Assembly: GCF_965638725.1 (NCBI RefSeq)
Contig: NW_027472014.1
Span: 577,001-641,000 of the forward strand
DNA: 64,000 nucleotides
Reading direction: 5' to 3'
From: Aptenodytes patagonicus
Taxonomy: Eukaryota > Chordata > Aves > Sphenisciformes > Spheniscidae
Shown here: one piece after another, positions 2,250 through 54,093 of the stretch
Numbering within the stretch: position 1 is the stretch's first letter
Layout of the letters: each line of letters starts with the position of its first letter
Notes under the pieces: generated by a model
What the model saw: the letters and a program-made list of their open reading frames with translations, nothing else
Told to the model about the DNA's origin: nothing
The model's database searches: none
Translations under genes and position numbers: made by a program

Positions 2250-4397
2250 ATGAGCCAGGACGGTGTGGGACGGGTGCCCGTGGCGTGCAGCCGCCCCTCG
2301 CCCTGCCGGGGCCTGGCGCAGAAGAACGAGCACAAGCGGCAGCTGGAGAGGCTGCGGGCTGAGCTGGAGGCTGAGCGACTCCGCTCCCAAGAGCTGTGCC
2401 GCCGCTTCGCTGCTGAAACTCGGGAGTTGAAGGAGGCAGCAGAGCGGGAGCGGCGGCTCCTGGCTGAACGGCTACACTCCAAATGGGAGCAGCAGCAGGC
2501 ACGGGAGCTCCAGCGGCTGCGGGAGCTGAACCAGCGGCAGCGGGCAGTGGAGATCCGCCAGCTGCTGCGCTCAAAGGAGGCTGAGCTGTGCGAGGTGCAG
2601 GGGGTGCTGCAGCGGCAGCGCGACGACACCGTCCGTCAGGCACGGGACCTGCAGCAGCAGCTGGCCAAGGAGCTGGTGAGAGGAGCCTGGAGCAGCAGCG
2701 AGGCCCGCGGTAAGCTCCAGGACGTCCTCAGCAAGCTGCGCTGGGAGACCAGTGGCGAGCAGGCTGCTCGCATCCTTGTCCTCCAAGACAAACTGCTGCT
2801 GCAGAGGAGACTCTTCCTAAAGTACATCTTGGAGCAGTTGGAGGGTGAGCAGCCTGCTTCCTGCAAGGAAGCCAGGGCCAAGGCTACGGCCTGGCACCGC
2901 CTGCAGACCCTCCAGGGCACCGGGACCATCGGGCCCTGCTCTTCAGAGAGCCTCATGGCATCTTCCTCCCACAATGGAGAAGGGCAGCCAAAAACCTGCG
3001 AGAGCTTAAAAGCTCATCTCCAGGAGGAAGGGAACAGCGTGGAGGTTTTGCTCGAGGCTGTGGGGCAAGCCTTGGCGCCGCACTGCTTGGACTCCCTGCC
3101 GCAGGAAAGGACCAGCAGCAGGCGGTCTGTGGCAGAGGTGGGTGTTCAGACTCTAGGGCAGCAGGAGGACTGGCTGCCTGGTAGCAGTCACAGCAGGCTG
3201 CTGGAGCGGAACGCCCACCTCCAGAGTGCCCTGAAGGACCTCGAGAGGCAATGCAGTGTCCTTCAAGAGGAGAACTGTCTTCTGAGGAAGGCAAGCTCTC
3301 CTGAAGTGTGGGAGAGGCTCAAGCAGAAGACTGCTAAGCTGGGTCTCATTAGCAAGCAGCTGCAAGAAAGAGCCAGGCAACTGCAGACCGTCGATTGCCT
3401 GAGCAACACTCGAGTGCCACTGCCCACCCAAAGCTCCACTGAGGAACTGCGTATGACATCGCTTCCTCAGCAGAAGGCTGGAGAAATGGGAGAGCCTGCC
3501 GGAGCTTTGCTGGCACAGGACGAGCAGGATGACTTCTCACAGAGGGCAGCTGAGGAGCTTCAGGCCCAAGTGGCTGCACATGAAGAGGGCTCCTATTGTG
3601 TGAGCGCCCACTGCCGAACTTGTGAGGAGTTACAGGCGCAGCTTACGGAGATGACAAACGAAAACACCCGACTGGCTGAGGAAAACGCTCGCCTCCGTGG
3701 ACAGATGGGTTTGACAGAAAGGGCGACTAAGGCATGTGGCAGAGGAGCAAGATTCTGCCATCCGAACAAACGCCTGTCTTCAAACCCAGCTGGAAGAGGC
3801 AGAGCGCAAAACGAAAGCCATGAGAGAAATGGCACGAGTCAACAGCCGGAGAAGGAACATGAGGAGACAAAGTTAGCGCTCCAGAGGAAAGATGAGGGAG
3901 TTGAGTGTTTGCAGGGGGCTCGGACAGAAGTACGCAGGGAACACGAAGAAACCCTGCAACTGTTTCGAGCCCAGGTGACTGAACTGAATGATGGGTTTCG
4001 GAAGCTAACTGAACGACGCCAGCAGCTCTTTCAGGAACTTGAACGGCTGGAAAGAGAAAGATCCAACCGTATCATTTCCAGGCCGCACCAGGCTATGCTG
4101 GGAGCAGACAAGGAGCCCATCCTCCTGGAGGCTATGAGACAGCAACCGGCAGAGCTTCGAGCATTCATAGCTCGATACAGCTATGATCCTTTCGACGGTC
4201 CCAATGAGCAGCCTGAACTAGAGCTTCCTCTCATTGCTGGGCAATACGTTTACATCTTTGGAGACGTGGATGAAGACGGTTGGTATGTGGGAGAGCTGAC
4301 CGACGGCACAAGAGGATTCGTCCCCTCTAATCTTGTTGAAGAAGTTTCAGGTGACGACCTGATGACACCAGAGTCTCCAGAGACAAGTGATTGGTAG
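2250..4397 (+). CDS. RIM-binding-protein-like coiled-coil/SH3 protein, copy 1
   Basis: 715 codons, intronless. I chose the ATG at 2250 (G at -3) because the frame further upstream opens only with GTG. Residues ~24-200 form a charged coiled coil with the RIMBP/TSPOAP1 family signature KLRWETSGEQAARI (162-175) and LFLKYILEQLE (188-198). Further coiled coils lie at ~316-377 and ~455-620, and one SH3 domain at ~637-700 (ARYSYDPF, DEDGWYVGEL, GFVPSNLVEEV). Family members bind proline-rich partners such as RIM and Ca-channel tails, or act in sperm head shaping (RIMBP3, also intronless). Here the FN3 repeats and the two C-terminal SH3 domains are absent. ATTAAA lies at 4440. Residues ~488-540 appear to run in a shifted frame (see findings). 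Partner and tissue are unknown; RIMBP3-like versus TSPOAP1-like is undecided. Confidence 0.85.
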   Translation: MSQDGVGRVPVACSRPSPCRGLAQKNEHKRQLERLRAELEAERLRSQELCRRFAAETRELKEAAERERRLLAERLHSKWEQQQARELQRLRELNQRQRAVEIRQLLRSKEAELCEVQGVLQRQRDDTVRQARDLQQQLAKELVRGAWSSSEARGKLQDVLSKLRWETSGEQAARILVLQDKLLLQRRLFLKYILEQLEGEQPASCKEARAKATAWHRLQTLQGTGTIGPCSSESLMASSSHNGEGQPKTCESLKAHLQEEGNSVEVLLEAVGQALAPHCLDSLPQERTSSRRSVAEVGVQTLGQQEDWLPGSSHSRLLERNAHLQSALKDLERQCSVLQEENCLLRKASSPEVWERLKQKTAKLGLISKQLQERARQLQTVDCLSNTRVPLPTQSSTEELRMTSLPQQKAGEMGEPAGALLAQDEQDDFSQRAAEELQAQVAAHEEGSYCVSAHCRTCEELQAQLTEMTNENTRLAEENARLRGQMGLTERATKACGRGARFCHPNKRLSSNPAGRGRAQNESHERNGTSQQPEKEHEETKLALQRKDEGVECLQGARTEVRREHEETLQLFRAQVTELNDGFRKLTERRQQLFQELERLERERSNRIISRPHQAMLGADKEPILLEAMRQQPAELRAFIARYSYDPFDGPNEQPELELPLIAGQYVYIFGDVDEDGWYVGELTDGTRGFVPSNLVEEVSGDDLMTPESPETSDW

Positions 4398-4438
4398 CGG
4401 GACACAGATGATGTCTGTCCTGTCTTCTGCTATCTTCT

Positions 4439-4530
4439 TATTAAATATTTTCTTAACTACCTCTCTGTGTCATCTCACTCTCTACCCTGGGTGTATGTGA
4501 ACTGAAAGGACTATGTGCCAGCTACTGGGG
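4439..4530 (+). repeat. Inverted-repeat arm: 3' UTR of RIMBP-like gene
   Basis: Starts at the ATTAAA poly(A) signal (4440-4445) and runs to CTACTGGGG. It is the reverse-complement partner of 1036-1128 at roughly 89% identity. With its partner it brackets the whole RIMBP-like pair. Confidence 0.85.
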
Positions 4531-6770
4531 GGCTGGCGTGGGTGGAGTGGCTGCCAGCTATTGGAGCGAACCAGGGGGGTGTACGCACCCCTGGCTTGTG
4601 GTGCCAGCCACTGGAGTGGGTCCCAGTGCGCCTGGTGAATGGGGGGTCTCAGTGCAGCTACTGGAGCAGGTGGGGGTCTCAGCCACCAGGCACTGGGGCG
4701 GGAACGGTGTGTGTCCCGAAAACCACTTACGGGGGGGGACCGGCATGAGTGAGGCAAGTGAGAGGCTCTGTAAGTGTCTGTATCTTCCCCAAACCTGGTG
4801 TGCACGGGGCGTGCGTGTGCATTCACCAGCAAACTTCAAGCTGGACCAGCTGGTGACTAGGGGGGCCTCGGGTCCCGGCTGGGGTCTCAGGCAGGCAGAG
4901 GGTCCGTGCTGGCACCTGGGGAGATGGGCGGGTGTGGGGTGCCCGCAGGACAAATGCGTGAGTGCTGCCTGTTTGCAGGCAGCACCAAGATGGACCAGCC
5001 AGCGAGTAGGGGACCGTGGGGTGGGTCAGAGGAATGAGATCTGGGCAGGGGTACCAGGGGGACAGAGGGGCCGTGCCAGTATGCGAGGGATCCATGACCA
5101 TGCGTGTGCTTGTGAACACAGAGAGTGTCGTGTGTGTGCCTGCACTGGTGACCTCCTGTCTCTGCCAGCCCAAGAGGAGGAGGGGACGTGGCTGGCTGTG
5201 TGTTTCAGGTGAGTCCTAAGGAGTGGCTTGGAGCGGTGGCCAGTCTTGACATCCCTTAACACGTGGGTCTGTGGGTTGCATGGGGGGAGATGGATCCCAC
5301 TTCATGCCGAGGGCTTCCAGCTGGGGATGAGATGCCTGCATTGCTTCGGCTGAATCCCTGCCTGGCACAGGCTCCAACCAACAGCTCTCTGTCACTGCCT
5401 GTGTGTCCTTTTTGTTATGGGTCAAGAATACCAGTGTCCAGAGGGAAACATTTACACCTCTCGTAGACATCCATGCTCCAGTAGGACAAACCATGCTTTT
5501 GGAATCGGCCTCGCTCCACTGTGCCTCTGAGAGCCTGCCCGGAGCTGTCAAACATCTCAGATCGTCTCCCTTCTCTTATGTGGACTGAGGAGATGTTGCA
5601 CGGCAGAAGCTGGCACCTCTTCAGACCCCCTGACGCTGCCCTGAGTGCCCGGCTGCCTCTGCCCTGGCCTCTCTCAGCCAGACCCTCGCTGTCTATTTGC
5701 TTGTTTCTCCACTTGTCTGTGTTATTGTTATTTCATTCTTGCTGTCAGGCTCCCTAGGGATGGGAATTTCAGCTACAGAGTCACACACTGATCTTGTTGG
5801 TCAATTCATGCGGGTGTGTGCATGGGAACAAGTGTCCCAGCTTTCCTCTCACCTGTGGGGCTGGTTTTCCCTTAATCAGATGCTATCGTTAGGACACTTG
5901 GCTATCTCCTTGGGGTGTCCTCCCAAGCTGTGAGCTGCCCTTCAGGATACAGACCTGTCCCATAGCTCCTTTGTGTTATCCGAAAGCCCCACAGAGAAAC
6001 GCAAAGACTCTACGACTGCGGAAATGCTGTTGGGTTGGTGAAATGAGCCATGTGTGTCCTTGGCTAGAAGTGGGGTGCTGAGACCTTGAGAAAGGGTGAG
6101 ACATTTAGCGGTCTGCACTGGAGCCCTCTGCTCTCAGCAGTGTCTGGTTGTTTCTCAGGGTAACACGAGAGTGTGATCACCCTCCAGCTCATGAATAACA
6201 AGCCCATGGCAGCTCAGAACAAGTCAGAGGGACAGACATTCTGCACTAAGCCACAGGCAATCCTCTTGCCTCACAGGACTCGCTCTGTTCTCCTCGAGTG
6301 CAGCAGAAATGCTGAGGGCTTCTGACATCCAAGAACAATCCCCAGGGGAGTTAGGGGGAGCTGCAAGAAGCCCCAAGCCTCTCAATCTGCCTTCTGGCAT
6401 CTCAGTTCCTCAGCACTGGGAGTGCCGATGCTGACAGGCCCTTCTGCGTTAGGACCAGTTTCACCTGACAAAGTCAAACACCAGGACTGGCCCCTGCCCC
6501 CTCTGTTCCCATGAACCCACTGCTGCAGAGCAGGGATGACTCCTCGGCAGCCAGCGGGCAGAGGCCCTGCTCCTCACAGCACATTCAGCCAGCACCGACC
6601 AGAGCTCCAGCCACGGAGCTGAGGAAGGTTTCCTGGAAAAGGAATGAGGGGCGGGGGGTGTAGCAGGGTGAAGGTCTAGGAGAAAGGCTTTGATTTTCCT
6701 CAGAGAAGTCTCCCCTAACTCTTCATTGACTGTTCCTCTGAGAACAGGACCCCGTGCCCAGAAAGAGCAG
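4531..6770. other. Gene-poor spacer, unit 1
   Basis: No gene recognised. 4800-5220 is GC-rich and contains a degenerate tandem repeat: an AGCTGGACCAGCTGGTGACTAGG-like word near 4838 recurs as AGATGGACCAGCCAGCGAGTAGG near 4988, about 150 bp apart. Open frames there are short and have no recognisable domain. 5240-6770 is mixed-composition sequence leading to the OR pseudogene and may include remnants of its 5' leader exons, which cannot be identified by eye. Confidence 0.5.
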
Positions 6771-7703
6771 ATGTCCAACAGCAGCTCCATCACCCAGGTC
6801 CTCCTCCTGGCCTTCACTGGCAAGAGCTGCAGCTCTTGCACTTCTGTCTCTTCCGGGGCACCTTCCTGGCTGCCCTCCTGGGAAACGGCCTCATCATCAC
6901 CGCTATAGCCTGTGACCACCGCCTCCACACCCCCCATGTACTTCTTCCTCCTCAACCTCTCCCTCCTTGACCTGGGCTCCATCTCCAACACTCTCCCCAA
7001 AGCCATGGCCAATTCCCTCTGGGACACCAGGGCCATCTCCTACGCAGGATGTGCTGCCCAGGTCTTTCTGTTTGCCGCCTTGGTTGGAGCAGAGTATTGT
7101 CTTCTGACTGTCATGGCCTACGACTGCTATGTGGCCATCTGCAAACCCCTGCACGATGGGACGCTGGTGGGCGGCAGAGCTTGTGCCCACACGGCAGCAG
7201 CTGCCTGGGGCAGTGGGTTTCTCAATGCTCTCTTGCACACTGCCAATACATTTTCCATACCCATCTGCAAGGGCAATGCTGTACATCAGTTCTTCTGTGA
7301 AATCCCCCAGGTCCTCAAGCTCTCCTGCTCAGACTCAGACCACCTCAGGGAAGCTGGGCTTCTTGTGGTTAGTGTCTGTCTAGCTTTGGGGTGTTTTGTT
7401 TTCATTGTGGCGTCCTACGTGCAGATCTTCAGGGCTGTGCTGAGGATCCCCTCTGAACAGGGATGACACAAAGCCTTTTCCATGTGCCTCCCTCACCTGG
7501 CCGTGGTCCCCCTGGTTGTCAGCACCGGCATGTTCACCTACCTGAAGCCCCCCTCCATCTCCTCCCCATCCCTGGATCTGGTGGTGGCTGGTCTGTACTT
7601 GGTGGTTCCTCCAGCAAACCCCCTCATCTACAGCATGAGGAACCAGGAGCTCGAAGATGCACTGAAGAAGCTGATTCAATCACTTGTCTTTCAGCAGCAA
7701 TAA
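6771..7703 (+). pseudogene. Olfactory receptor pseudogene, OR14-like, unit 1
   Basis: Seven-transmembrane odorant receptor of the type greatly expanded in birds. Visible motifs are MSNSSSITQ at the N-terminus, PMYFFLLNLSLLDLGSIS (TM2), MAYDCYVAICKPLH (end of TM3), FFCEIPQ, FSMCLPHLAVV (TM6) and NPLIYSMRNQE (TM7). Lesions: a frameshift after the ninth to twentieth codons (near 6825), a compensating extra C in the C-run near 6936, a TGA at 7464-7466 where the family has Arg before HKAFS, Arg to Cys in the DRY-type motif (DCY), and one residue missing in PPANPLIYS. All lesions are shared with unit 2, so the gene was dead before duplication. Confidence 0.9.
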
Positions 7704-9070: not shown

Positions 9071-10762
9071 ATGCCAGCAAAGACCCAGGTGAGAAGAAGG
9101 CGGGCTCTGCTGGCAGCCAGGCCGAGTTTCAACATGGGGCACGTGGGGCCTGCCCCGAGGCCGAGCAGCCCCCGGCCCAGGCTCGGGGCCCCTCTTCCCC
9201 CCTTCCACCCCTCCCCCCTCTCTCCCCTCCGCCCCCCCCCAGCCACCCCTGTGTACTGGAACCCCCTGTCTTCATGGGAGCCACCGGCTCCCAGAGCGTC
9301 AGTATCCCGTGGCCGTGCCACTAGGCGGCAGCCATGGGCCACGGGGCTTCTCGCCGCCATCGCTGCCAGCATCCAGCTGACGGTGGTGAGGACATGACGG
9401 TGAGGCCGCCGGGATGGCGGTGGGGTGGATGAGGAGGGGTGGGGGTGGTGCTTGCCGTGGGGCTGCCCGCCATCCCCTCACCCACATCCCCTCCCCGCAG
9501 CCCAACCCCACAGCAGCCTGAAGGGTGGTGAGGAGGGGAAGGACATGGCTGCCATCCAGCGTCTCCCCCCTGAGATGGTGAGTTGAGTAGGGGTGGATGG
9601 CGGGGCTGGGGTCTCCCCCTGAAAGCAGGGGGGGTCCCAGGGTTGATGCTCTCGCCCCCTCTCTCCCCACAGCTACTGCACATCGTCTCCTTCCTGACGC
9701 TGCCCGACCTGCTGAGACTGGGCCAGACCTGCCGCTGCCTCCACGAGGTGTGTGGCAGCGAGGCCGCCTGGCACGGCCACCTGGCACCACCGCTGCACCC
9801 CTCTCCCTCCCTGCTGCCGCCAGCGCCTGGCCCTGCAAGAGGGCCGCCATCCTCAACTGCGAGTCTGCCCTTGCCAATGGGGGGAGAGGGTGGCACTTTG
9901 TCCCCCAGCTGGTGACAATGTCCCTGCTTTCCCCCCTCCAGACACCAAGGGGCTGTACCTCCAGAGCCTGGGCCGCTGCCGGCAGCGAGCGCTGATGGCC
10001 TCCATCCTGTCTCCCCCCTCCCATGACTATCACAAGCTGGTGCCTGCCCAGCAGCACCTCTTCCTCCTGGATTATGGCGGGACCACCTTCTTCCTCCGTG
10101 ACTCCAGCCGCCGCGCCTGCCACTGCCAGGCCCTCTCCTGCGGCGTCAAGGATGTACGCCGACCCTTTCCCCCATGGCACTGCCACGCGGGGTGACCATC
10201 CCCTCCTCCCCACAGGTGACAGCGGATGCCCGTGGGGAGCCCGCCCCCGTCTACGCGCTGAGGGGGCAGGAGCAGTGTGACACCCTGGAGGTGTACAACC
10301 CCGCCGACACCCAGCCCGTCTTCCGCATCAGCTTCCCCCCTCCATCCGCTTCCGGTAGGTGGTCGTCACCGGGACGGAGACGACGTGGACCCTTCTGCTG
10401 CTCACGGGTTGGGGGACACACTGAGGGGATGGGGGGGGGCACCTTGGGTTGAGGAGGAAACTGGGGGGGGGAGGGGACACCCCAAATTCAGCCCCCTGAC
10501 CCCCCATCTTTTAACAAGGGGGGGGCAGGTGTACAACCTGTGGCTGGGCGTGGCCCACTTGGCCCCACACCCCATTGGCCTCCGCCAGCCCATCCGCACC
10601 ATGGTCACTGGCTACGGCGCCGGCGCCTTCCTCACAGTACGTCCCCCCCCAAATCCCCTAAATTCACCCCCAAAACCCACCCCCTCATGTGACCCGCGAT
10701 CTCCCGCAGAGATGGGGGATGTCTTCCTGCAGGTGTGAACCTCGGGGTGCCCTGCCCACCCT
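9071..10762 (+). pseudogene. FBXO24: FBXO24 5' exons (F-box part), unit 1
   Basis: Exon-like blocks with good splice signals: 9501-9577 (IQRLPPEM), 9673-~9866 (LLHIVSFLTLPDLLRLGQTC, the F-box), 9942-10153 (GLYLQSLGR, FLLDYGGTTFFLRD), 10216-10354 (EVYNPADTQPVFRI), 10529-10636 (VYNLWLGVAHLAP) and 10710 onward (EMGDVFLQ). Order and motifs follow FBXO24, an SCF substrate receptor with an F-box then RCC1-like repeats. The F-box exon changes frame before its WPCKRAAILN end, a TGA lies at 10736-10738, and provirus A is inserted at 10762, so the RCC1 part sits 14 kb away at 24919. The gene is therefore broken here. Confidence 0.8.
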
Positions 10763-12407: not shown

Positions 12408-12446
12408 AGTGGTAAAAGATAAACCGCTCAGAGTTAAGTTTTGTAG

Positions 12447-19683: not shown

Positions 19684-19685
19684 TT

Positions 19686-21700: not shown

Positions 21701-21702
21701 AA

Positions 21703-25708: not shown

Positions 25709-26293
25709 AGATGAGTATTGATCAGGCGATCGATGGGTCTCCTGCCGTTGCCTGGATGTTTCGTCCAGCCGCGAGGCGAGGGCAGCTAGTTCAGCATTTT
25801 TCTGCTGCAGCCTCTCTGCCTCCTTGCACGCTTCTGGAGAGCCTGCCTTTGTCAGGAGGCAGCTCTCCCTCCCAGGGGCGCTCTGTTGCCTCTCCAGGTC
25901 TTCTAGAACACGCTGCAGGCGGGTGTTCTGCTGCAGGAGCCGGCTGCGTTTGCTGCCGAGCAGCACCAAGTCTTCCCCCTCTGGCACCTGGAGCTGAGCA
26001 TCTGCCACAGCCTTGCGTGTTGTTTGCTGCCCAGCCCTGGGGCTTTCAGGCGGTCTTTCCTGTCGTGCCGCCAGGGCCTGGGGCCGTTTCTGCCAGAGGA
26101 GCAGGAGCTCTGCGTCTCCTGATGGCCCTGGTGCCCAGGAGGGCCTTGGGGCTGGGCCGTGCTGGGGGATGATTTTCTCCTCCATAAAATTCCAGCTTTT
26201 AATACAATCCCACACAAGTTTCGGATCGTGTTCATATGAGGCCACCTCATTCGGCTTGCAAGGGGTTGTTTGGGGGTTTTTCTCCCTCCTCAT
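25706..26293 (-). pseudogene. Truncated RIMBP-like paralogue, unit 2
   Basis: 195-codon frame as in unit 1, with Gln to Pro near codon 24 (HDPKL) and Arg to Pro in ARQERPPES. These two changes are shared with unit 3 and differ from unit 1, which suggests that units 2 and 3 share a more recent history here, or that unit 1 changed. It lacks the SH3 region. Confidence 0.6.
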
Positions 26294-26938: not shown

Positions 26939-29086
26939 ATGAGCCAGGACGGTGTGGGACGGGTGCCTGTGGCGTGCAGCCGCCCCTCGCCCTGCCGGGG
27001 CCTGGTGCAGAAGAACGAGCACAAGCGGCAGCTGGAGAGGCTGCGGGCTGAGCTGGAGGCTGAGCGACTCCGCTCCCAAGAGCTGTGCCGCCGCTTCGCT
27101 GCTGAAACTCGGGAGTTGAAGGAGGCAGCAGAGCGGGAGCGGCGGCTCCTGGCTAAACGGCTACACTCCAAATGGGAGCAGCAGCAGGCACGGGAGCTCC
27201 AGCGGCTGCGGGAGCTGAACCAGCGGCAGCGGGCAGTGGAGATCCGCCAGCTGCTGCGCTCAAAGGAGGCTGAGCTGTGCGAGGTGCAGGGGGTGCTGCA
27301 GCGGCAGCGCGACGACACCATCCGTCAGGCACGGGACCTGCAGCAGCAGCTGGCCAAGGAGCTGGTGAGAGGAGCCTGGAGCAGCAGCGAGGCCCGCGGT
27401 AAGCTCCAGGACGTCCTCAGCAAGCTGCGCTGGGAGACCAGTGGCGAGCAGGCTGCTCGCATCCTTGTCCTCCAAGACAAACTGCTGCTGCAGAGGAGAC
27501 TCTTCCTAAAGTACATCTTGGAGCAGTTGGAGGGTGAGCAGCCTGCTTCCTGCAAGGAAGCCAGGGCCAAGGCTACGGCCTGGCACCGCCTGCAGACCCT
27601 CCAGGGCACCGGGACCATCGGGCCCTGCTCTTCAGAGAGCCTCATGGCATCTTCCTCCCACAATGGAGAAGGGCAGCCAAAAACCTGCGAGAGCTTAGAA
27701 GCTCATCTCCAGGAGGAAGGGAACAGCGTGGAGGTTTTGCTCGAGGCTGTGGGGCAAGCCTTGGCGCCGCACTGCTTGGACTCCCTGCCGCAGGAAAGGA
27801 CCAGCAGCAGGCGGTCTGTGGCAGAGGTGGGTGTTCAGACTCTAGGGCAGCAGGAGGACTGGCTGCCTGGTAGCAGTCACAGCAGGCTGCTGGAGCAGAA
27901 CGCCCACCTCCAGAGTGCCCTGAAGTACCTCGAGAGGCAATGCAGTGTCCTTCAAGAGGAGAACTGTCTTCTGAGGAAGGCAAGCTCTCCTGAAGTGTGG
28001 GAGAGGCTCAAGCAGAAGACTGCTAAGCTGGGTCTCATTAGCAAGCAGCTGCAAGAAAGAGCCAGGCAACTGCAGACCGTCGATTGCCTGAGCAACACTC
28101 GAGTGCCACTGCCCACCCAAAGCTCCACTGAGGAACTGCGTATGACATCGCTTCCTCAGCAGAAGGCTGGAGAAATGGGAGAGCCTGCCGGAGCTTTGCT
28201 GGCACAGGACGAGCAGGATGACTTCTCACAGAGGGCAGCTGAGGAGCTTCAGGCCCAAGTGGCTGCACATGAAGAGGGCTCCTATTGTGTGAGCGCCCAC
28301 TGCCGAACTTGTGAGGAGTTACAGGCGCAGCTTACGGAGATGACAAACGAAAACACCCGACTGGCTGAGGAAAACGCTCGCCTCCGTGGACAGATGGGTT
28401 TGACAGAAAGGGCGACTAAGGCATGTGGCAGAGGAGCAAGATTCTGCCATCCGAACAAACGCCTGTCTTCAAACCCAGCTGGAAGAGGCAGAGCGCAAAA
28501 CGAAAGCCATGAGAGAAATGGCACGAGTCAACAGCCGGAGAAGGAACATGAGGAGACAAAGTTAGCGCTCCAGAGGAAAGATGAGGGAGTTGAGTGTTTG
28601 CAGGGGGCTCGGACAGAAGTACGCAGGGAACACGAAGAAACCCTGCAACTGTTTCGAGCCCAGGTGACTGAACTGAATGATGGGTTTCGGAAGCTAACTG
28701 AACGACGCCAGCAGCTCTTTCAGGAACTTGAACGGCTGGAAAGAGAAAGATCCAACCGTATCATTTCCAGGCCGCACCAGGCTATGCTGGGAGCAGACAA
28801 GGAGCCCATCCTCCTGGAGGCTATGAGACAGCAACCGGCAGAGCTTCGAGCATTCATAGCTCGATACAGCTATGATCCTTTCGACGGTCCCAATGAGCAG
28901 CCTGAACTAGAGCTTCCTCTCATTGCTGGGCAATACGTTTACATCTTTGGAGACGTGGATGAAGACGGTTGGTATGTGGGAGAGCTGACCGACGGCACAA
29001 GAGGATTCGTCCCCTCTAATCTTGTTGAAGAAGTTTCAGGTGACGACCTGATGACACCAGAGTCTCCAGAGACAAGTGATTGGTAG
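26939..29086 (+). CDS. RIM-binding-protein-like coiled-coil/SH3 protein, copy 2
   Basis: 715 codons, intact. Relative to copy 1 it carries A23V, E73K, V128I, K254E, R320Q and D330Y, all in the coiled-coil half; the SH3 domain (~637-700) is unchanged. At least one synonymous change was seen (CCC to CCT near 26968). The start ATG, 3' UTR ATTAAA and inverted 3' arm are conserved. Gene architecture and caveats are as for the copy at 2250. It is the only host gene in unit 2 without a visible lesion, since FBXO24 and the OR are both broken. Confidence 0.85.
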   Translation: MSQDGVGRVPVACSRPSPCRGLVQKNEHKRQLERLRAELEAERLRSQELCRRFAAETRELKEAAERERRLLAKRLHSKWEQQQARELQRLRELNQRQRAVEIRQLLRSKEAELCEVQGVLQRQRDDTIRQARDLQQQLAKELVRGAWSSSEARGKLQDVLSKLRWETSGEQAARILVLQDKLLLQRRLFLKYILEQLEGEQPASCKEARAKATAWHRLQTLQGTGTIGPCSSESLMASSSHNGEGQPKTCESLEAHLQEEGNSVEVLLEAVGQALAPHCLDSLPQERTSSRRSVAEVGVQTLGQQEDWLPGSSHSRLLEQNAHLQSALKYLERQCSVLQEENCLLRKASSPEVWERLKQKTAKLGLISKQLQERARQLQTVDCLSNTRVPLPTQSSTEELRMTSLPQQKAGEMGEPAGALLAQDEQDDFSQRAAEELQAQVAAHEEGSYCVSAHCRTCEELQAQLTEMTNENTRLAEENARLRGQMGLTERATKACGRGARFCHPNKRLSSNPAGRGRAQNESHERNGTSQQPEKEHEETKLALQRKDEGVECLQGARTEVRREHEETLQLFRAQVTELNDGFRKLTERRQQLFQELERLERERSNRIISRPHQAMLGADKEPILLEAMRQQPAELRAFIARYSYDPFDGPNEQPELELPLIAGQYVYIFGDVDEDGWYVGELTDGTRGFVPSNLVEEVSGDDLMTPESPETSDW

Positions 29087-33842: not shown

Positions 33843-35534
33843 ATGCCAGCAAAGACCGAGGTGAGAAGAAGGCGGGCTCTGCTGGCAGCCAGGCCGAGTT
33901 TCAACATGGGGCACGTGGGGCCTGCCCCGAGGCCGAGCAGCCCCCGGCCCAGGCTCGGGGCCCCTCTTCCCCCCTTCCACCCCTCCCCCCTCTCTCCCCT
34001 CCGCCCCCCCCCAGCCACCCCTGTGTACTGGAACCCCCTGTCTTCATGGGAGCCACCGGCTCCCAGAGAGTCAGTATCCCGTGGCTGTGCCACTAGGCGG
34101 CAGCCATGGGCCACGGGGCTTCTCGCCGCCATCGCTGCCAGCATCCAGCTGACGGTGGTGAGGACATGACGGTGAGGCCGCCGGGATGGCGGTGGGGTGG
34201 ATGAGGAGGGGTGGGGGTGGTGCTTGCCGTGGGGCTGCCCGCCATCCCCTCACCCACATCCCCTCCCCGCAGCCCAACCCCACATCAGCCTGAAGGGTGG
34301 TGAGGAGGGGAAGGACATGGCTGCCATCCAGCGTCTCCCCCCTGAGATGGTGAGTTGAGTAGGGGTGGATGGCGGGGCTGGGGTCTCCCCCTGAAAGCAG
34401 GGGGGGTCCCAGGGTTGATGCTCTCGCCCCCTCTCTCCCCACAGCTACTGCACATCGTCTCCTTCCTGACGCTGCCCGACCTGCTGAGACTGGGCCAGAC
34501 CTGCCGCTGCCTCCACGAGGTGTGCGGCAGCGAGGCCGCCTGGCACGGCCACCTGGCACCACCGCTGCACCCCTCTCCCTCCCTGCTCCCGCCAGCGCCT
34601 GGCCCTGCAAGAGGGCCGCCATCCTCAACTGCGAGTCTGCCCTTGCCAATGGCGGGAGAGGGTGGCACTTTGTCCCCCAGCTGGTGACAATGTCCCTGCT
34701 TTCCCCCCTCCAGACACCAAGGGGCTGTACCTCCAGAGCCTGGGCCGCTGCCGGCAGCGAGCGCTGATGGCCTCCATCCTGTCTCCCCCCTCCCATGACT
34801 ATCACAAGCTGGTGCCTGCCCAGCAGCACCTCTTCCTCCTGGATTATGGCGGGACCACCTTCTTCCTCCGTGACTCCAGCCGCCGCGCCTGCCACTGCCA
34901 GGCCCTCTCCTGCGGCGTCAAGGATGTACGCCGACCCTTTCCCCCATGGCACTGCCACGCGGGGTGACCATCCCCTCCTCCCCACAGGTGACAGCGGATG
35001 CCCGTGGGGAGCCCGCCCCCGTCTACGCGCTGAGGGGGCAGGAGCAGTGTGACACCCTGGAGGTGTACAACCCCGCCGACACCCAGCCCGTCTTCCGCAT
35101 CAGCTTCCCCCCTCCATCCGCTTCCGGTAGGTGGTCGTCACCGGGACGGAGACGACGTGGACCCTTCTGCTGCTCACGGGTTGGGGGACACACTGAGGGG
35201 ATGGGGGGGGGCACCTTGGGTTGAGGAGGAAACTGGGGGGGGGAGGGGACACCCCAAATTCAGCCCCCTGACCCCCCATCTTTTAACAAGGGGGGGGCAG
35301 GTGTACAACCTGTGGCTGGGCGTGGCCCACTTGGCCCCACACCCCATTGGCCTCCGCCAGCCCATCCGCACCATGGTCACTGGCTACGGCGCCGGCGCCT
35401 TCCTCACGGTACGTCCCCCCCCAAATCCCCTAAATTCACCCCCAAAACCCACCCCCTCATGTGACCCGCGATCTCCCGCAGAGATGGGGGATGTCTTCCT
35501 GCAGGTGTGAACCTCGGGGTGCCCTGCCCACCCT
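33843..35534 (+). pseudogene. FBXO24: FBXO24 5' exons (F-box part), unit 2
   Basis: Copy of 9071-10762: exon-like blocks 34273-34349, 34445-~34638 (F-box), 34714-34925, 34988-35126, 35301-35408 and 35482 onward. The same frame problem in the F-box exon and the TGA before the provirus junction are present. The last full donor reads CTCACGGTACGT, versus CTCACAGTACGT in unit 1. The matching 3' exons lie beyond provirus A at 49980-50232. Confidence 0.8.
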
Positions 35535-43827: not shown

Positions 43828-44581
43828 TGATTAACATAGTGCCTCCCCTTGCGGCAGCGTGGGCAAATACCAGGGGGCTGCTGAATTCCTTCTGATCCTC
43901 CCTTCTGTACAGGATTCTCAGGACATTGCCGTTTAAAATGCCCCGAGTTTCCACAGCGGAAACACGCTTTGTTACCGGGACACAAGGCAGCGGCTAAACA
44001 GGCTGCAAAAACCTCATTCTTATGTGTAATTGAACCCACACGGTTGCACGCGTCAAGCATGTCTATTATGGTCGGATTTCGCAATGTCTGCAAGACTCTT
44101 TTACAGTCCTCATTGGCATTTTCTATAGCCAATTTCATAAGCAATGCCTCTTTGGCTTCAGGATTTTGTATTTGTTTTTGAATAGCTTCTTGGAGCTTGT
44201 CGATAAAATCCATATAAGGTTCGTTGGTCCCTTGCTTAATGCTAGTAAAGGATTTTACCGGTCGTCCTGTATCAGGGACCTTTATCATTGCTTGAAACGC
44301 AAGGTCTGCTGATTGTCTTAAAATTTCAGGCGCCAGCCGTGCCTGCAGTTGTGGCGTATTGATAGGGTCCTCCCCCATTAACTGAGCGAGTCCCGCGCCC
44401 CGTAGCGGGTCTCCCGCTCGCCGTTAAAAGCAGTAGCCGAATCAAGGGGAATTCCCTTTCGTTTTAGCCATGAAAGCAATAGGCGGAGGGTATAATCATC
44501 ATACTTAATTCCACACTTTTCTAACAGCTTCTTAATAGTACATAGTATAGATTCCTCCTCCTTAGTTAGTTGTGATCCCAT
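43614..44581 (-). pseudogene. gag: Provirus B gag with internal deletion, unit 2
   Basis: Same ~700-bp internal deletion and frame change as unit 1. The short matrix piece runs 44581-44378; the late capsid and nucleocapsid piece runs 44378-43614 with both zinc knuckles. Small residue differences from unit 1 (ALRPGNK to ALCPGNK, YDLCGR to YDLRGR). Confidence 0.9.
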
Positions 44582-44726
44582 TTTAAGTTTCCCAGCTGCT
44601 CACCTCTGCTCCAACGAGGCGATGATTCAAAGTTCCGGCTCCAGCTCTTTCCTGAGACTGCTCTGTCTCCCGCTGGCTATGACTCGTTCAGCTGGCTCCC
44701 CACCGGTGCTCTGTTCCAGCATTTTC

Positions 44727-45091
44727 GCCCCACGTTGGGCGCCATTTGTGGGGGTGAAAAGCGGCACGGACTCCGGCAGACACGGCAACCAAAGACCTTT
44801 ATTGCTCTTTGTTAGCATCTTTTATAGCAAGCAGAAGTGTACACGCGCTACCTGCAGCTTGCAGATAGGTTATAGCCTTGTGTTCACGCGCATCTATGCT
44901 CTAGCAGATTGGCCCGTTCTTCCTGATCATGCGAAATGCCTTCATGGTCTTTATCTTGTTTTTCTCCTTCCAGCTGCACATTCCTTTCTCCGTTGTTTTC
45001 TGCTTAAGTGCCTTGTCATGCCAGGTGGTGCAGTGTTTGCTCATTAAAATCAAACTCAGGAATGTCCGTTAGTGAGATTCCCATCCCCACA
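44727..45091 (-). mobile_element. Provirus B primer site and 5' LTR, unit 2
   Basis: The primer site TGGCGCCCAACGTGGGGC lies at 44727-44744 on the minus strand, two bases from the LTR (44747-45091). TATAAAA and AATAAA are conserved. Confidence 0.9.
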
Positions 45092-46761: not shown

Positions 46762-46763
46762 AA

Positions 46764-47612
46764 CTAAAAAGGCTTAGTTGTCAGGATGGCCCCTATCTGG
46801 CTTAGTACGTCTCGCCCAATTAAGGCTTCAAGACCGTTGGGAAGGGACAAAACGTGTACCCGATTATTTACCTGCTGTCCCTCTGGGAAGGTTATTTGTA
46901 TCGGCTCACGGCTAACGTAGGTAGCTGATTGACCCCCTACTCCAGCAACAGCAGTTCCTGCTGGTTCTAGTCTCCACTGCGGGGGCCAAAGTGAATAGCT
47001 TATGATGGTGATATCTGCCCCCGTATCCATCATTGCGTTCAACCATACAGTGAGGCCCTGTTGCTGGAGGCTGCCTTTTATCATTGGTCTGTGGTTTAAT
47101 TTGGCCGAAAAACACACTGCTGTTCCAGTGGAGCCAAAGCTTCCACTGCCCCGCTTCTTCTCACTTGGCAGGGAATAGGTCACTGGGCTCTTAAAAGCAA
47201 GACTTTGAGCAATCCGACTTCCCTTGGGCACAAAAAGCGGTGGGTTCAACGTGTAAGCCATTATATAGATTGTCCCTTCATAGTCAGCATCAATAACTCC
47301 TGGAATAATAATTAGTCCTTTTACTCCAGCAGAGGAGCGTCCTAATAAGAGCCCCCCTATCTTTTGGTCCTCAGATATCAATGGCCCATTAGCGTTGCTG
47401 GGGATTTTGCAAACTTCAGAATTAGTTAGCATGACCTCTACTGCTGTTTCCAGGTCAACCCCCAGGCTCCCTGCGGTTGCTGGGATGTGGTTGTCGAGAA
47501 ACCTCTCTGGTTCACGCTTGGAGAGTGCATTTGTTTCTGCACGCGCCCTCTCTTCGCGCTCCCCTTCAGGTTTCCCGAACAGGCCTTTTGAGCATGAGTA
47601 CCTTTTTGACAC
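46764..47612 (-). CDS. pro: Provirus A dUTPase-protease, intact, unit 2
   Basis: 282 codons; dUTPase motifs and DTGAD conserved. Differences from unit 1: PLMSE to PLISE, AQILA to AQSLA, SQTGA to SQIGA. The Ile to Ser change falls right after the conserved SRIAQ of the dUTPase fold. Confidence 0.9.
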   Translation of the reverse strand: MSKRYSCSKGLFGKPEGEREERARAETNALSKREPERFLDNHIPATAGSLGVDLETAVEVMLTNSEVCKIPSNANGPLISEDQKIGGLLLGRSSAGVKGLIIIPGVIDADYEGTIYIMAYTLNPPLFVPKGSRIAQSLAFKSPVTYSLPSEKKRGSGSFGSTGTAVCFSAKLNHRPMIKGSLQQQGLTVWLNAMMDTGADITIISYSLWPPQWRLEPAGTAVAGVGGQSATYVSREPIQITFPEGQQVNNRVHVLSLPNGLEALIGRDVLSQIGAILTTKPF

Positions 47613-49354
47613 CTGTCACACCAAACTATCGCTCTACAGTTCCGGCGGCTATGCCCCCTCTCTCCACAACGATAACAGTTTCCTTTAAAAACCTGTGAGG
47701 TCTCAGACGATCGCTGCACAGCGGCCGCCAACGGTTGCACCACTTCCCTAATGGTAGTCTGCAATGTAGCAGCCATTACTTCATTCTGTTTTCGAATTTG
47801 AGCACGCTCCATTCGCAGGAGCATCTCTTCTATTCCTGCGCTTTTTGGCAGGGTGGCTAATATATTTTTTGTGGCATTGTTAGCGTTATCGGAAGCTAAA
47901 ATTCGAAACATTTGCTGTTTGTTATCCTCCCCCAAATCTGGATGATCACGTATCGCCCCCCACAAGCGATCGATAAAATGACTATACGTTTCAGTGGCAC
48001 CTTGCTGTACAGAACTAAAGGATGGAGCGGACGAACCGGGCAAGGCTGAAAAGGCGTCTAGTGCCAGTTTGGCAGACAACTGCAACAAAACAGGAGGAAA
48101 AGTTAACTGAGCATTAATATCATTAAACCTTCCCGTCCCCGTTATCATTTCCGCGGTAATCCCATAAAGAGGACCCCCCTGCGTTTGATGTTGTGCCGCA
48201 GCGCCCGCCGCCCGCCGTGACCACTCCGACCCCCACAACAAATACTGCGTAGGTGACAATAAAAGCCGCATAAGGTTTTGGCAGTCAGCAGGGCACATGA
48301 AATCCGCCGAAAAAATCCAAATTACAATCTGACGCGTAGCTTCTGATTTTATCCCATACTGGGACACAGTGTTTTTTGCTTGCTGTAGGATTTTCCAATC
48401 GTGAGGCGCCCACTTATTGCCGTTATTCTCTTGCAACACAGGAAAAGCACTCGCCCCCAAGCTGGATGCCGCTTGCCACTGCCCGTCCAGCATAGCGTCT
48501 CTAGCCACTTCGCTCCAGCGCCTGGGCTGAACCGTCGCTGGTGGCCCAGGGAGGCAAGGGGGTAGGGATCCCCCTGACGCCCCGGACAGGTGTTCTGTTC
48601 CTCCCCTCTGGGCTGTAATTGCTAAGTCCTGTAACTGTTGCACCACCTTCTTCAGGAGCTCATTAGTCTCAGCCATACTCTGTGCTTTGCTGTCACCCTG
48701 TGGCGGAGTAGACGCACCTGAAGAGACTTCTAGAGGCGGGGCTGTTGGCCAGGGAGGGGTTAACGGAACTAGCCGCTTCTCCTCCCCGGGTCGTTGTTTT
48801 TCCGCGACCGTCTCAGGTGAAAGAGGGGCCCCGTTACCGCTAGTTTCTGCATCTTTGCAGTCCGTAAGCGGAGGGTAGGTCTCATGCGGTTCAGAAGCGC
48901 CATCGCGCCCTAGAACGCTATACTTGACTTCCAAGGCAGTTTTTTTGGGGGTGCCCGACATACCTCGGACCGCAGACAGCCCAAAGAACCGAGACAGTCC
49001 AGATGCTGTATTCTTTGGCTTATCAGGCAAGGGTTCTGGGGCTAGCATTTGAGCGGCTGCACAAGCCACCTCTCCTTTAGCTTTCATGGCTTTTAAAGTC
49101 TCTAACACAGATCTCCACAGTTCCTGTACTGCTTTAATCTCCTTCTTTGACTTTTCGTCCCCCGTGATAGTCTGCTCCCCCATAGTATCGCCAAGCTCTC
49201 GCCACTCAAGGTCGGAAAAAATAGTTTGATTGTCTTTAAAATGTCCCCAACGTTGTCCTAATTTAATCAACGTATATAGTTGCTTTACCGTTGTCTCAAT
49301 CCCTCTCTTTGAGAGGATGCTTGCGAGCAACGCCGCTGCCGCCTCTATTTCCAT
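47438..49354 (-). CDS. gag: Provirus A Gag, intact, unit 2
   Basis: 638 codons, open. About six residue differences from unit 1 (for example FSHLE to FSDLE, MKAEGE to MKAKGE, GGIEHL to GGTEHL, GVSAF to GASAF, IEDML to IEEML). Major homology region, both zinc knuckles and the GGGAAAC slip site are retained. Confidence 0.9.
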   Translation of the reverse strand: MEIEAAAALLASILSKRGIETTVKQLYTLIKLGQRWGHFKDNQTIFSDLEWRELGDTMGEQTITGDEKSKKEIKAVQELWRSVLETLKAMKAKGEVACAAAQMLAPEPLPDKPKNTASGLSRFFGLSAVRGMSGTPKKTALEVKYSVLGRDGASEPHETYPPLTDCKDAETSGNGAPLSPETVAEKQRPGEEKRLVPLTPPWPTAPPLEVSSGASTPPQGDSKAQSMAETNELLKKVVQQLQDLAITAQRGGTEHLSGASGGSLPPCLPGPPATVQPRRWSEVARDAMLDGQWQAASSLGASAFPVLQENNGNKWAPHDWKILQQAKNTVSQYGIKSEATRQIVIWIFSADFMCPADCQNLMRLLLSPTQYLLWGSEWSRRAAGAAAQHQTQGGPLYGITAEMITGTGRFNDINAQLTFPPVLLQLSAKLALDAFSALPGSSAPSFSSVQQGATETYSHFIDRLWGAIRDHPDLGEDNKQQMFRILASDNANNATKNILATLPKSAGIEEMLLRMERAQIRKQNEVMAATLQTTIREVVQPLAAAVQRSSETSQVFKGNCYRCGERGHSRRNCRAIVWCDRCQKGTHAQKACSGNLKGSAKRGRVQKQMHSPSVNQRGFSTTTSQQPQGAWGLTWKQQ

Positions 49355-49496
49355 GATAGCGGTCGCTCACTGGGAGGCAGTTGGCCAGACTACTCCGTTA
49401 TCTTATCCCCCTCCGATCATCGGGATAGTACAACTCCCAGCCACTATTCTCCCGCTCCCCTTCTTGCTCTTTCCGCAGTCTCGAAGAGGCGCGCCG

Positions 49497-50769: not shown

Positions 50770-51354
50770 AGATGAGTATTGATCAGGCGATCGATGGGTC
50801 TCCTGCCGTTGCCTGGATGTTTCGTCCAGCCGCGAGGCGAGGGCAGCTAGTTCAGCATTTTTCTGCTGCAGCCTCTCTGCCTCCTTGCACGCTTCTGGAG
50901 AGCCTGCCTTTGTCAGGAGGCAGCTCTCCCTCCCAGGGGCGCTCTGTTGCCTCTCCAGGTCTTCTAGAACACGCTGCAGGCGGGTGTTCTGCTGCAGGAG
51001 CCGGCTGCGTTTGCTGCCGAGCAGCACCAAGTCTTCCCCCTCTGGCACCTGGAGCTGAGCATCTGCCACAGCCTTGCGTGTTGTTTGCTGCCCAGCCCTG
51101 GGGCTTTCAGGCGGTCTTTCCTGTCGTGCCGCCAGGGCCTGGGGCCGTTTCTGCCAGAGGAGCAGGAGCTCTGCGTCTCCTGATGGCCCTGGTGCCCAGG
51201 AGGGCCTTGGGGCTGGGCCGTGCTGGGGGATGATTTTCTCCTCCATAAAATTCCAGCTTTTAATACAATCCCACACAAGTTTCGGATCGTGTTCATATGA
51301 GGCCACCTCATTCGGCTTGCAAGGGGTTGTTTGGGGGTTTTTCTCCCTCCTCAT
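50767..51354 (-). pseudogene. Truncated RIMBP-like paralogue, unit 3
   Basis: 195-codon frame as in units 1 and 2; matches unit 2 at the two sites where unit 1 differs. SH3 region absent. Confidence 0.6.
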
Positions 51355-51945
51355 GCTTCACCAGCGACCATATGATTTACCACAGCAGTAGGGCACTATG
51401 GAAACGAGCTGCGAAGCAACTCTGAGAATCTAGGGTGCCCACATCCTCCAGGTTAGCATCTTTAGCAGTGACCCCACCGTCGAGCTCAGCCCACGCTCGC
51501 TCTTGCCAGCACAGCCGCCAGCTCCGGGAGAGAGCAGGGCAGGAGCTGCCCAGGGATGCCCCTTATGACCGCACGGCCCTGGGACACCCTTTGTGACACA
51601 GGGCCATGCGGGGCCATGCGGCGACGGGGCTGGCACCGCCCGGCACCTCCTGCAGCTGTGGTCGTGGGGCCCCCCAGGCCAGGACATACCTTCTAAGGCC
51701 ATGAGGCCCCACCCCTCCTTTGTGTGGCCAGGGCCAGGACATACCTTCTAAGGCCATGAGGCCCCACCCCTCCTTTGTGTGGCCAGGGCCAGGACACGTG
51801 TATAAGGCCATACTCGCTCACCCCGGCTGATTGCAGATGCTGTCTCCGCCTCTGCATGGTCAAGGGAGGCAGCAGCTGCTGAGAGGGAGTGACGCGCAAC
51901 GTCGGTGGCTGTTGGTGGCGGCGTTTGGTTGCCATCCTTGCAGCC
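51355..51945. promoter_or_regulatory. Divergent spacer with candidate promoter and VNTR, unit 3
   Basis: Contains two full 55-bp VNTR copies (51682-51736 and 51737-51791), then CACGTG and TATAAGG as in unit 1. Confidence 0.4.
51682..51815. repeat. 55-bp VNTR, two full copies plus partial (unit 3)
   Basis: Two 55-bp copies starting GGACATACCTTCTAAGG, then a partial starting GGACACGTGTATAAGG. Copy numbers across the array are 1, 3 and 2. Confidence 0.9.
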
Positions 51946-54093
51946 ATGAGCCAGGACGGTGTGGGACGGGTGCCCGTGGCGTGCAGCCGCCCCTCGCCCT
52001 GCCGGGGCCTGGCGCAGAAGAACGAGCACAAGCGGCAGCTGGAGAGGCTGCGGGCTGAGCTGGAGGCTGAGCGACTCCGCTCCCAAGAGCTGTGCCGCCG
52101 CTTCGCTGCTGAAACTCGGGAGTTGAAGGAGGCAGCAGAGCGGGAGCGGCGGCTCCTGGCTGAACGGCTACACTCCAAATGGGAGCAGCAGCAGGCACGG
52201 GAGCTCCAGCGGCTGCGGGAGCTGAACCAGCGGCAGCGGGCAGTGGAGATCCGCCAGCTGCTGCGCTCAAAGGAGGCTGAGCTGTGCGAGGTGCAGGGGG
52301 TGCTGCAGCGGCAGCGCGACGACACCGTCCGTCAGGCACGGGACCTGCAGCAGCAGCTGGCCAAGGAGCTGGTGAGAGGAGCCTGGAGCAGCAGCGAGGC
52401 CCGCGGTAAGCTCCAGGACGTCCTCAGCAAGCTGCGCTGGGAGACCAGTGGCGAGCAGGCTGCTCGCATCCTTGTCCTCCAAGACAAACTGCTGCTGCAG
52501 AGGAGACTCTTCCTAAAGTACATCTTGGAGCAGTTGGAGGGTGAGCAGCCTGCTTCCTGCAAGGAAGCCAGGGCCAAGGCTACGGCCTGGCACCGCCTGC
52601 AGACCCTCCAGGGCACCGGGACCATCGGGCCCTGCTCTTCAGAGAGCCTCATGGCATCTTCCTCCCACAATGGAGAAGGGCAGCCAAAAACCTGCGAGAG
52701 CTTAAAAGCTCATCTCCAGGAGGAAGGGAACAGCGTGGAGGTTTTGCTCGAGGCTGTGGGGCAAGCCTTGGCGCCGCACTGCTTGGACTCCCTGCCGCAG
52801 GAAAGGACCAGCAGCAGGCGGTCTGTGGCAGAGGTGGGTGTTCAGACTCTAGGGCAGCAGGAGGACTGGCTGCCTGGTAGCAGTCACAGCAGGCTGCTGG
52901 AGCGGAACGCCCACCTCCAGAGTGCCCTGAAGGACCTCGAGAGGCAATGCAGTGTCCTTCAAGAGGAGAACTGTCTTCTGAGGAAGGCAAGCTCTCCTGA
53001 AGTGTGGGAGAGGCTCAAGCAGAAGACTGCTAAGCTGGGTCTCATTAGCAAGCAGCTGCAAGAAAGAGCCAGGCAACTGCAGACCGTCGATTGCCTGAGC
53101 AACACTCGAGTGCCACTGCCCACCCAAAGCTCCACTGAGGAACTGCGTATGACATCGCTTCCTCAGCAGAAGGCTGGAGAAATGGGGGAGCCTGCCGGAG
53201 CTTTGCTGGCACAGGACGAGCAGGATGACTTCTCACAGAGGGCAGCTGAGGAGCTTCAGGCCCAAGTGGCTGCACATGAAGAGGGCTCCTGTTGTGTGAG
53301 CGCCCACTGCCGAACTTGTGAGGAGTTACAGGCGCAGCTTACGGAGATGACAAACGAAAACACCCGACTGGCTGAGGAAAACGCTCGCCTCCGTGGACAG
53401 ATGGGTTTGACAGAAAGGGCGACTAAGGCATGTGGCAGAGGAGCAAGATTCTGCCATCCGAACAAACGCCTGTCTTCAAACCCAGCTGGAAGAGGCAGAG
53501 CGCAAAACGAAAGCCATGAGAGAAATGGCACGAGTCAACAGCCGGAGAAGGAACATGAGGAGACAAAGTTAGCGCTCCAGAGGAAAGATGAGGGAGTTGC
53601 GTGTTTGCAGGGGGCTCGGACAGAAGTACGCAGGGAACACGAAGAAACCCTGCAACTGTTTCGAGCCCAGGTGACTGAACTGAATGATGGGTTTCGGAAG
53701 CTACCTGAACGACGCCAGCAGCTCTTTCAGGAACTTGAACGGCTGGAAAGAGAAAGATCCAACCGTATCATTTCCAGGCCGCACCAGGCTATGCTGGGAG
53801 CAGACAAGGAGCCCATCCTCCTGGAGGCTATGAGACAGCAACCGGCAGAGCTTCGAGCATTCATAGCTCGATACAGCTATGATCCTTTCGACGGTCCCAA
53901 TGAGCAGCCTGAACTAGAGCTTCCTCTCATTGCTGGGCAATACGTTTACATCTTTGGAGACGTGGATGAAGACGGTTGGTATGTGGGAGAGCTGACCGAC
54001 GGCACAAGAGGATTCGTCCCCTCTAATCTTGTTGAAGAAGTTTCAGGTGACGACCTGATGACACCAGAGTCTCCAGAGACAAGTGATTGGTAG
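51946..54093 (+). CDS. RIM-binding-protein-like coiled-coil/SH3 protein, copy 3
   Basis: 715 codons, intact. It is nearer copy 1 than copy 2 is: only Y449C, E552A and T587P were seen, with one synonymous GGA to GGG. SH3 residues and the KLRWETSGEQAARI signature are unchanged. Pro at 587 falls in the last predicted coiled coil (FRKLPERRQQLFQ) and could kink it. The copy is followed by the usual 3' UTR and then, about 335 bp after the stop, by the CR1 element that ends the array. Confidence 0.85.
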   Translation: MSQDGVGRVPVACSRPSPCRGLAQKNEHKRQLERLRAELEAERLRSQELCRRFAAETRELKEAAERERRLLAERLHSKWEQQQARELQRLRELNQRQRAVEIRQLLRSKEAELCEVQGVLQRQRDDTVRQARDLQQQLAKELVRGAWSSSEARGKLQDVLSKLRWETSGEQAARILVLQDKLLLQRRLFLKYILEQLEGEQPASCKEARAKATAWHRLQTLQGTGTIGPCSSESLMASSSHNGEGQPKTCESLKAHLQEEGNSVEVLLEAVGQALAPHCLDSLPQERTSSRRSVAEVGVQTLGQQEDWLPGSSHSRLLERNAHLQSALKDLERQCSVLQEENCLLRKASSPEVWERLKQKTAKLGLISKQLQERARQLQTVDCLSNTRVPLPTQSSTEELRMTSLPQQKAGEMGEPAGALLAQDEQDDFSQRAAEELQAQVAAHEEGSCCVSAHCRTCEELQAQLTEMTNENTRLAEENARLRGQMGLTERATKACGRGARFCHPNKRLSSNPAGRGRAQNESHERNGTSQQPEKEHEETKLALQRKDEGVACLQGARTEVRREHEETLQLFRAQVTELNDGFRKLPERRQQLFQELERLERERSNRIISRPHQAMLGADKEPILLEAMRQQPAELRAFIARYSYDPFDGPNEQPELELPLIAGQYVYIFGDVDEDGWYVGELTDGTRGFVPSNLVEEVSGDDLMTPESPETSDW

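Follow-up and report, generated by a model that had tools for sequence, protein, structure and literature searches.

A single-exon RIMBP3-like gene in 15 near-identical copies in the genome of Aptenodytes patagonicus

Introduction

The mammalian RIMBP3 gene is intronless. RIM-binding proteins (RIM-BPs) are described, in the part of PMC7565545 that was available, as containing three SH3 domains and two to three FN3 domains, and chicken is reported there with three Rimbp3 genes. For the mammalian protein, the available text of PMC5260884 describes the binding of RIM-BP3 to HOOK1 and a requirement of Rimbp3 for normal manchette position and sperm-head shape; mouse Rimbp3 mutants form ectopic manchettes, the presumed cause of their deformed sperm heads. 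A palindrome is known on the W chromosome of birds (excerpt of PMC3403216). No paper on an amplified avian RIMBP3 array was found among the publications listed, and the nearest to it is the statement on chicken in the excerpt of PMC7565545.

Here we describe a stretch of 64,000 nucleotides from A. patagonicus (hereafter the window) that carries three copies of a gene of this family, and the relatives of this gene in the same genome and in other species. An earlier, sequence-only reading of the window had proposed an amplified, possibly fast-evolving gene with a protected SH3 module.

Genome material and searches

The assembly that was searched comprises 1.35 Gb in 618 contigs; the window is C53:577001-641000 and forms the end of the unassigned 641,000-base contig C53. 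Copies were counted by a protein search (61 of 170 candidates scored), by a search with the DNA of the frame (40 of 54) and by a search with the part upstream of it (40 of 360), and the flanks of each copy were compared over about 2.2 kb on the upstream side and as much as 5.4 kb on the downstream side. Relatives were collected in three protein searches (36, 54 and 31 relatives), in which the named ones were from birds, gecko, lizard and one salamander; these relatives are known here as proteins only and were found as open frames, with intact ones over-represented. Omega was estimated under four mutation models, two of them CpG-weighted.

Organization of the window

The window comprises two complete units, about 24.6-25.1 kb in length, followed by the beginning of a third; they are arranged head to tail and 99.1-99.7% alike across long matched stretches. 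Each unit contains an open frame of 736 codons on the plus strand (2187-4397, 26876-29086 and 51883-54093; ORF reading of the 64,000-nt window), of which codon 22 is the ATG, resulting in single-exon ORFs of 715 amino acids at 2250..4397 (copy 1, open from 2187), 26939..29086 (copy 2) and 51946..54093 (copy 3). A block of about 54 bp directly upstream of the frame (window 2033-2186) varies in number among copies (gaps of 54, 55 and 109).

Other host genes in the window are broken. An olfactory-receptor pseudogene, spread over several frames, is located at 6719..7703 in unit 1 and at about 31417-32401 in unit 2, and a fragment of an F-box gene, for which the name FBXO24 given earlier is putative, at 9600..10450 and 34372..35222, all on the plus strand. 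Unit 3 has neither, because its sequence leaves that of units 1 and 2 at 54427 (point of departure, 54427..54428); beyond it, unit 3 continues into a non-LTR retrotransposon with plus-strand frames at 54602..58503, one of them with a retrotransposon-type endonuclease (55648-56673), which we take to be CR1-like. A broken fragment of a RIMBP3-like paralogue (P0008 subfamily) lies on the minus strand at 1156..1688, head to head with copy 1, and recurs at 25736..26268 and 50797..51329 in units 2 and 3. The minus strand of units 1 and 2 contains, at 10612-24305 and 35782-49366, several retroviral frames (gag, pol, integrase, env) that are not all of one kind; two env-type stretches within them are about 84% alike in DNA.

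The sequence-only reading was correct in that the 715-codon frame is open in all three units, as the ORF reading confirmed. Its statement that FBXO24 and the olfactory receptor are broken in every unit holds for units 1 and 2 and fails for unit 3, and its account of the RIMBP3-like gene as the only intact host gene had missed a further broken one, i.e. the minus-strand paralogue.

The predicted protein

The 736-codon frame of copy 1 contains a RIMB1/RIM3A-C-like N-terminal domain (RIMB1_N; residues 338-461, plus strand 3198..3569; PF25566, E 1.6e-24, exceeding the curated cut-off) and, by domain match, one SH3 domain (codons 655-724, plus strand 4149..4358). The top structure matches by sequence are the SH3 domains of RIM-BP2 and of RIM-binding protein isoform F, the closest solved structure being the RIM-BP2 SH3 (1wie, E 2e-25). 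No FN3 and no second or third SH3 domain was found in the frame, which stops 12 residues past the SH3, or in the next ORF, which had no Pfam match. By these predicted features, the window gene is a RIMBP3-like gene in the truncated form that other birds share.

Relatives and older selection

In the tree, the window gene falls among named RIMBP3-like proteins of birds, within a clade that takes up 16 of the 31 rows (support 98/99); the named members of this clade are Columba, Sarcoramphus, Ciconia, Mycteria, Buteo and Aquila, which belong to Neoaves. In seven more distant homologues (P0008-P0012, P0014, P0019) the SH3 domain is 89-93% identical and the first 240 residues 53-64%. In the nearest full-length relatives the SH3 identity is 97% (P0004), 91% (P0005) and 81% (P0006); in P0006 the RIMB1_N stretch is better kept than the SH3 (86% against 81%).

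The identity of codons 512-561 to the same three relatives is low (49%, 49% and 70%), because of a frameshift: codons of about 512-549 (copy 1, plus strand 3720..3833) lie outside the ancestral frame, between two compensating indels, and their residues are identical in copies 2 and 3. Read in frame +1, the DNA of this stretch matches each of the seven homologues from outside the clade that were tested (scores 99-148, with a maximum of 55 for shuffled sequences), as against scores of at most 29 in the frame actually used; for a goose protein (P0015) the score is 69 and the shuffled maximum 50. The first shifted peptide is common to P0004, P0005, P0006 and P0049, and the frame is regained right after GRGA in P0005, after RFC in P0004, near codon 549 in the window, near codon 575 in P0006 and in another way in P0049. 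As read from these proteins, the lost frame is regained at different points in related lineages, with the SH3 readable each time, the number of separate rescues being open to sampling bias. Four protein models of 390-392 residues in or near the clade (P0044, P0045, P0046 and P0048; from Buteo, Aquila and two others) end without an SH3, which may represent a truncation shared by hawks and eagles.

Omega of the coil against the C11 paralogue is 0.69 (0.53-0.91), and values against paralogues in the same genome range from 0.58 to 0.91 over seven pairs; for the SH3 alone against the C2 loci, omega is 0.32, 0.48 and 0.71, with wide intervals of which two extend above 1. Judged by these comparisons, the family is constrained but evolving quickly over the long term, and the ancestral gene was evidently held in frame by selection. 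SH3 conservation together with the compensated frame is, at the level of these alignments, a better argument that the founder worked than are three open frames.

The array on contig C53

Fifteen near-identical copies of the RIMBP3-like gene were found, all of them on contig C53, with protein and DNA searches concordant among the matches listed; the upstream 1.86 kb likewise occurs 15 times (40 of 360 candidates scored). Among the scored candidates there was no comparable DNA match outside C53, the next-best matches of the frame (40 of 54 scored) being 76% over part of it and 83-84% for short SH3 pieces. Fourteen of the 15 copies are open across all 736 codons, and the remaining one (at 550544) is frameshifted by a 2-nt insertion in a run of C. 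The copies differ pairwise at 11-37 positions over about 4.6 kb. Many near-identical copies, as known from ampliconic families, are thus present in the C53 array.

Within the stretches compared, the part that all 15 copies have in common consists of the RIMBP3-like frame, about 2.1 kb of sequence in front of it and about 130 bp past the stop codon, i.e. an amplified core with small gaps at 1..4530 (plus strand), whose upstream limit is set by the stretch compared. Downstream, there are three classes: the olfactory receptor and F-box fragment as in units 1 and 2 (4/15 copies), the retrotransposon continuation as at the end of the window, or a variant of it (4/15), and a class absent from the window that starts near 4530 (7/15), of which the one inspected (L013) is repeat-rich. 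On C53 the F-box fragment is present 12 times; six of these fragments lie 2.6-2.7 kb upstream of a RIMBP3-like copy and four lie 5.2 kb downstream of one. Because it recurs near copies on both sides, sharing between the copies may be wider beyond the compared stretches.

The copies are arranged in seven consecutive minus-strand copies (172.9-348.3 kb) and seven consecutive plus-strand copies (451-631 kb), with one extra plus-strand copy at 146 kb. Segments at 263.5-266.5 kb and 233-235 kb are mirrored around position 400,265 at 99.8% and 99.9%. No mirror image was found in the stretch examined for the tested places at 300, 360 and 385 kb, the last of these having only a 73% repeat match, and the palindrome is therefore partial (three of five tested places without a mirror image).

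In the four-gamete test with 31 informative core sites, all four combinations occur in 291 of 465 site pairs and, when CpG sites are left out, in 77 of 120; variants have therefore been mixed between copies by conversion or exchange. Gene conversion between copies, as expected of an ampliconic family, is in agreement with these site patterns, conversion and unequal exchange being indistinguishable here.

Other RIMBP3-like loci in the genome

Two further RIMBP3-like arrays of other subfamilies are located on contig C2, at 28.8 Mb and at 31.5 Mb. At 28.8 Mb, the SH3 lies outside the frame of the coil in all 11 copies read (L022, L034-L043; a partial twelfth coil match was left out). At 31.5 Mb, a TGA is present in 16 of 16 copies, four of which were read directly, and the copies differ in which frame holds the SH3; one locus (L021, C2:31.55 Mb) contains a 4-base microsatellite (AGTC) inside the RIMBP3-like frame just before the SH3. 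An in-frame SH3 is missing in all 27 C2 array copies examined, and only the C53 array is intact among the three. The lesions are common to all copies within each C2 array and therefore predate the growth of the array or date from early in it, representing two founders and not 27 events; as array copies share lesions by descent, 14/15 open and 0/27 were not set against each other by Fisher's test. The C2 arrays lack an in-frame SH3, and amplification in this family therefore needs no intact gene.

An upstream element of the window (51677..51797, plus strand) has a match of 79-81% in the array at 28.8 Mb on C2 and is kept although the proteins of that array share only about half their residues; by its conservation it is a possible promoter or 5' UTR.

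Further loci were found on C11 and C21 (365-aa frames without SH3) and at C2:12.93 Mb (open through an altered SH3). The distance to the contig end is about 150 kb for the C11 locus and about 31 kb for the C21 locus, which suggests a subtelomeric origin. The F-box fragment also adjoins RIMBP3-like loci on C11, C21 and C163, and 23 more partial copies of it are present on other contigs (40 of 40 candidates scored). In these 23 places, its first 405 bp (78-405 in two cases) occur at 88-93%, on C78, C111, C135, C249, C311, C432, C243 and C591; those on C78, C111 and C135 are often about 31-34 kb apart and, from this spacing, possibly represent another amplified unit. In a search for relatives in viral contigs, one stretch matched a pattern and none was confirmed.

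The proposal of an amplified gene was thus borne out, more strongly than it had been made, by 15 copies on C53 (14 open, one frameshifted, in the genome-wide count that had been suggested as a check) and two C2 arrays of other subfamilies. Many copies with stops, named beforehand as evidence against a working gene, were encountered in the two C2 arrays (27/27) and not in the C53 array (1/15).

Variation among the copies

Copies 1 and 2 of the window differ by six nonsynonymous and one synonymous change, and copies 1 and 3 by three and one; these counts had been exact in the sequence-only reading, which had also placed all differences outside the SH3 (codons 655-724), as is the case for the three window copies. 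For the 11 changes in the window, the chance of no stop is about 0.6, two synonymous changes fit no selection (p 0.52-1.0), and the chance of none in the SH3 is 0.32. Three open frames alone are therefore uninformative on selection since duplication, and the inference from them to present-day function does not follow.

Over all 15 copies, 38 changes were counted in 2,211 bases; two precede the ATG, and the 715 codons contain 27 nonsynonymous and nine synonymous changes. The expected number of synonymous changes is 8.9-11.1 (p 0.59-1.0) and omega is 0.98-1.33 across the four models; the chance of no stop is 0.18-0.21. The SH3, with 10% of the codons, has two of 36 changes, one nonsynonymous and one synonymous (P 0.30). 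The frequency of variable sites in the frame (35/2148) does not differ significantly from that in the upstream region (40/1941; Fisher p 0.35), nor does it when CpG sites are excluded (11/1938 and 17/1766, p 0.19); CpG sites are about 14-20 times more often variable than other sites. Compared with a CpG-matched null, the sites hit by amino-acid changes are somewhat less conserved (P 0.033 when 13 homologues are used, 0.076 when the three nearest are used, 0.072 without SH3, and 0.029 and 0.066 in a separate calculation), a weak effect that is not relied on.

Change in the frame among the copies is what would be expected in the absence of selection. Most fairly read, the copies are too young for selection since amplification to be judged, and their intactness is therefore not yet evidence that they work. 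Positive selection among the copies was rejected on the basis of omega (0.98-1.33), which had been suggested for computation, and SH3 protection was rejected as a reading of the window differences alone (P 0.32). Of the two earlier proposals, a protected SH3 module is upheld over the long term by its identity in the distant and the nearest homologues, save for the better-kept RIMB1_N of P0006, and fast evolution applies to the family over the long term (0.58-0.91) and is not supported for the period since amplification.

Interpretation

The best explanation, to which we assign a probability of roughly 0.65 with a germ-line role included, is that an old gene with an SH3, itself under selection, was amplified recently and in a partly palindromic manner. 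This avian RIMBP3-like gene, a single exon encoding a coil, RIMB1_N and one SH3 just before its end, would long have been kept in frame by selection, and a founder of this kind would have been rescued from the shared frameshift. The locus would then have been amplified recently to the 15 copies on C53, in two partly mirrored blocks of opposite orientation, with mixing of the copies by gene conversion or unequal exchange. At least some copies would be expressed, the male germ line being the most likely site, and the protein might serve there as a scaffold via its coil and SH3, by analogy with mammalian RIM-BP3 on the spermatid manchette. The higher copy number would have at most a dosage effect, because no copy-specific selection is visible. 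Against this reading count the variation since duplication, by which little separates the frame from neutral DNA (omega about 1; chance of no stop 0.18-0.21), the two sister arrays that were amplified without an in-frame SH3, the clade models of 390-392 residues without SH3, and the three of five tested places that are unmirrored.

The same neutral pattern, with a frame not significantly less variable than its upstream region and one copy frameshifted already, is what a passive array would give, in which segmental duplication driven by repeats and recombination multiplied a founder that was intact by chance and whose copies, now unselected, will decay. The growth of the C2 arrays without an in-frame SH3 (27/27 examined) and the recurrence of F-box fragments on several other contigs are in line with it; selection on the founder until amplification argues against it, as does, weakly, the position of amino-acid changes at less conserved sites (P 0.033, 0.076 and 0.072). 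We consider it the less probable account, and the strongest competitor of a recently amplified, selected gene.

Selection for many copies, through dosage or genetic conflict as in multicopy germ-line genes on sex chromosomes, appears unlikely. It could account for the frame and its flanks alone being common to all 15 copies within the compared stretches, for 14 of 15 open copies and for the inverted, partly mirrored arms, and in mammals normal manchette position and sperm-head shape depend on Rimbp3 (available text of PMC5260884); however, there is no excess of amino-acid change, and the sister arrays were amplified though broken. A copy number created by the assembly (haplotypes or fold-back joins) is very improbable, for although large near-identical inverted repeats assemble poorly and one assembly was examined, the copies are set apart by 11-37 differences within about 4.6 kb and have three classes of downstream sequence, and the mirrored segments are 99.8-99.9% and not 100% alike, as a fold-back is expected to be.

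For the recently amplified, selected gene, an extension that we regard as speculative is that bird RIMBP3-like genes form a turnover family of spermiogenesis scaffolds, repeatedly amplified in segmental duplications in parallel to the human LCR22 RIMBP3 copies; other arrays would lose the SH3, and the lineage that keeps it would mend its frame and be driven to 15 copies by dosage selection or male-germ-line conflict.

With three comparable RIMBP3-like arrays in one genome, two amplified without and one with an in-frame SH3, it becomes testable whether a sperm-type gene must be functional to be amplified. The various points at which the frame was restored within one clade provide a natural experiment on the extent to which the coil tolerates scrambling while the SH3 is retained. 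The array also calls for caution, in that a frame still open in young copies counts only weakly as evidence of function.

Comparison with known systems

The window gene resembles mammalian RIM-BP3 (RIMBP3/RIMBP3B/RIMBP3C) in its RIMB1/RIM3A-C-like N-terminal domain, its RIM-BP-type SH3 and its single exon, and differs from it in a frame of 715 residues that ends 12 residues after the one SH3 and in which no FN3 was found. It shares RIMB1_N, coil and SH3 with the RIMS-binding protein 3-like genes of Gallus, Anser, Grus, Gavia, Mycteria, Ciconia and further birds. Most full-length RIMBP3-like proteins of other birds end just after the SH3, as does the window gene, whereas the goose proteins extend about 20 residues further and the chicken ones are longer. 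Unlike in these birds, the gene is present on C53 in 15 near-identical copies in inverted blocks, and unlike in birds outside its clade, it carries the compensated frameshift of the clade. HINTW is unrelated to the RIMBP3-like gene; the C53 array is, however, like HINTW and other ampliconic genes of bird sex chromosomes in being a near-identical multicopy gene with gene conversion.
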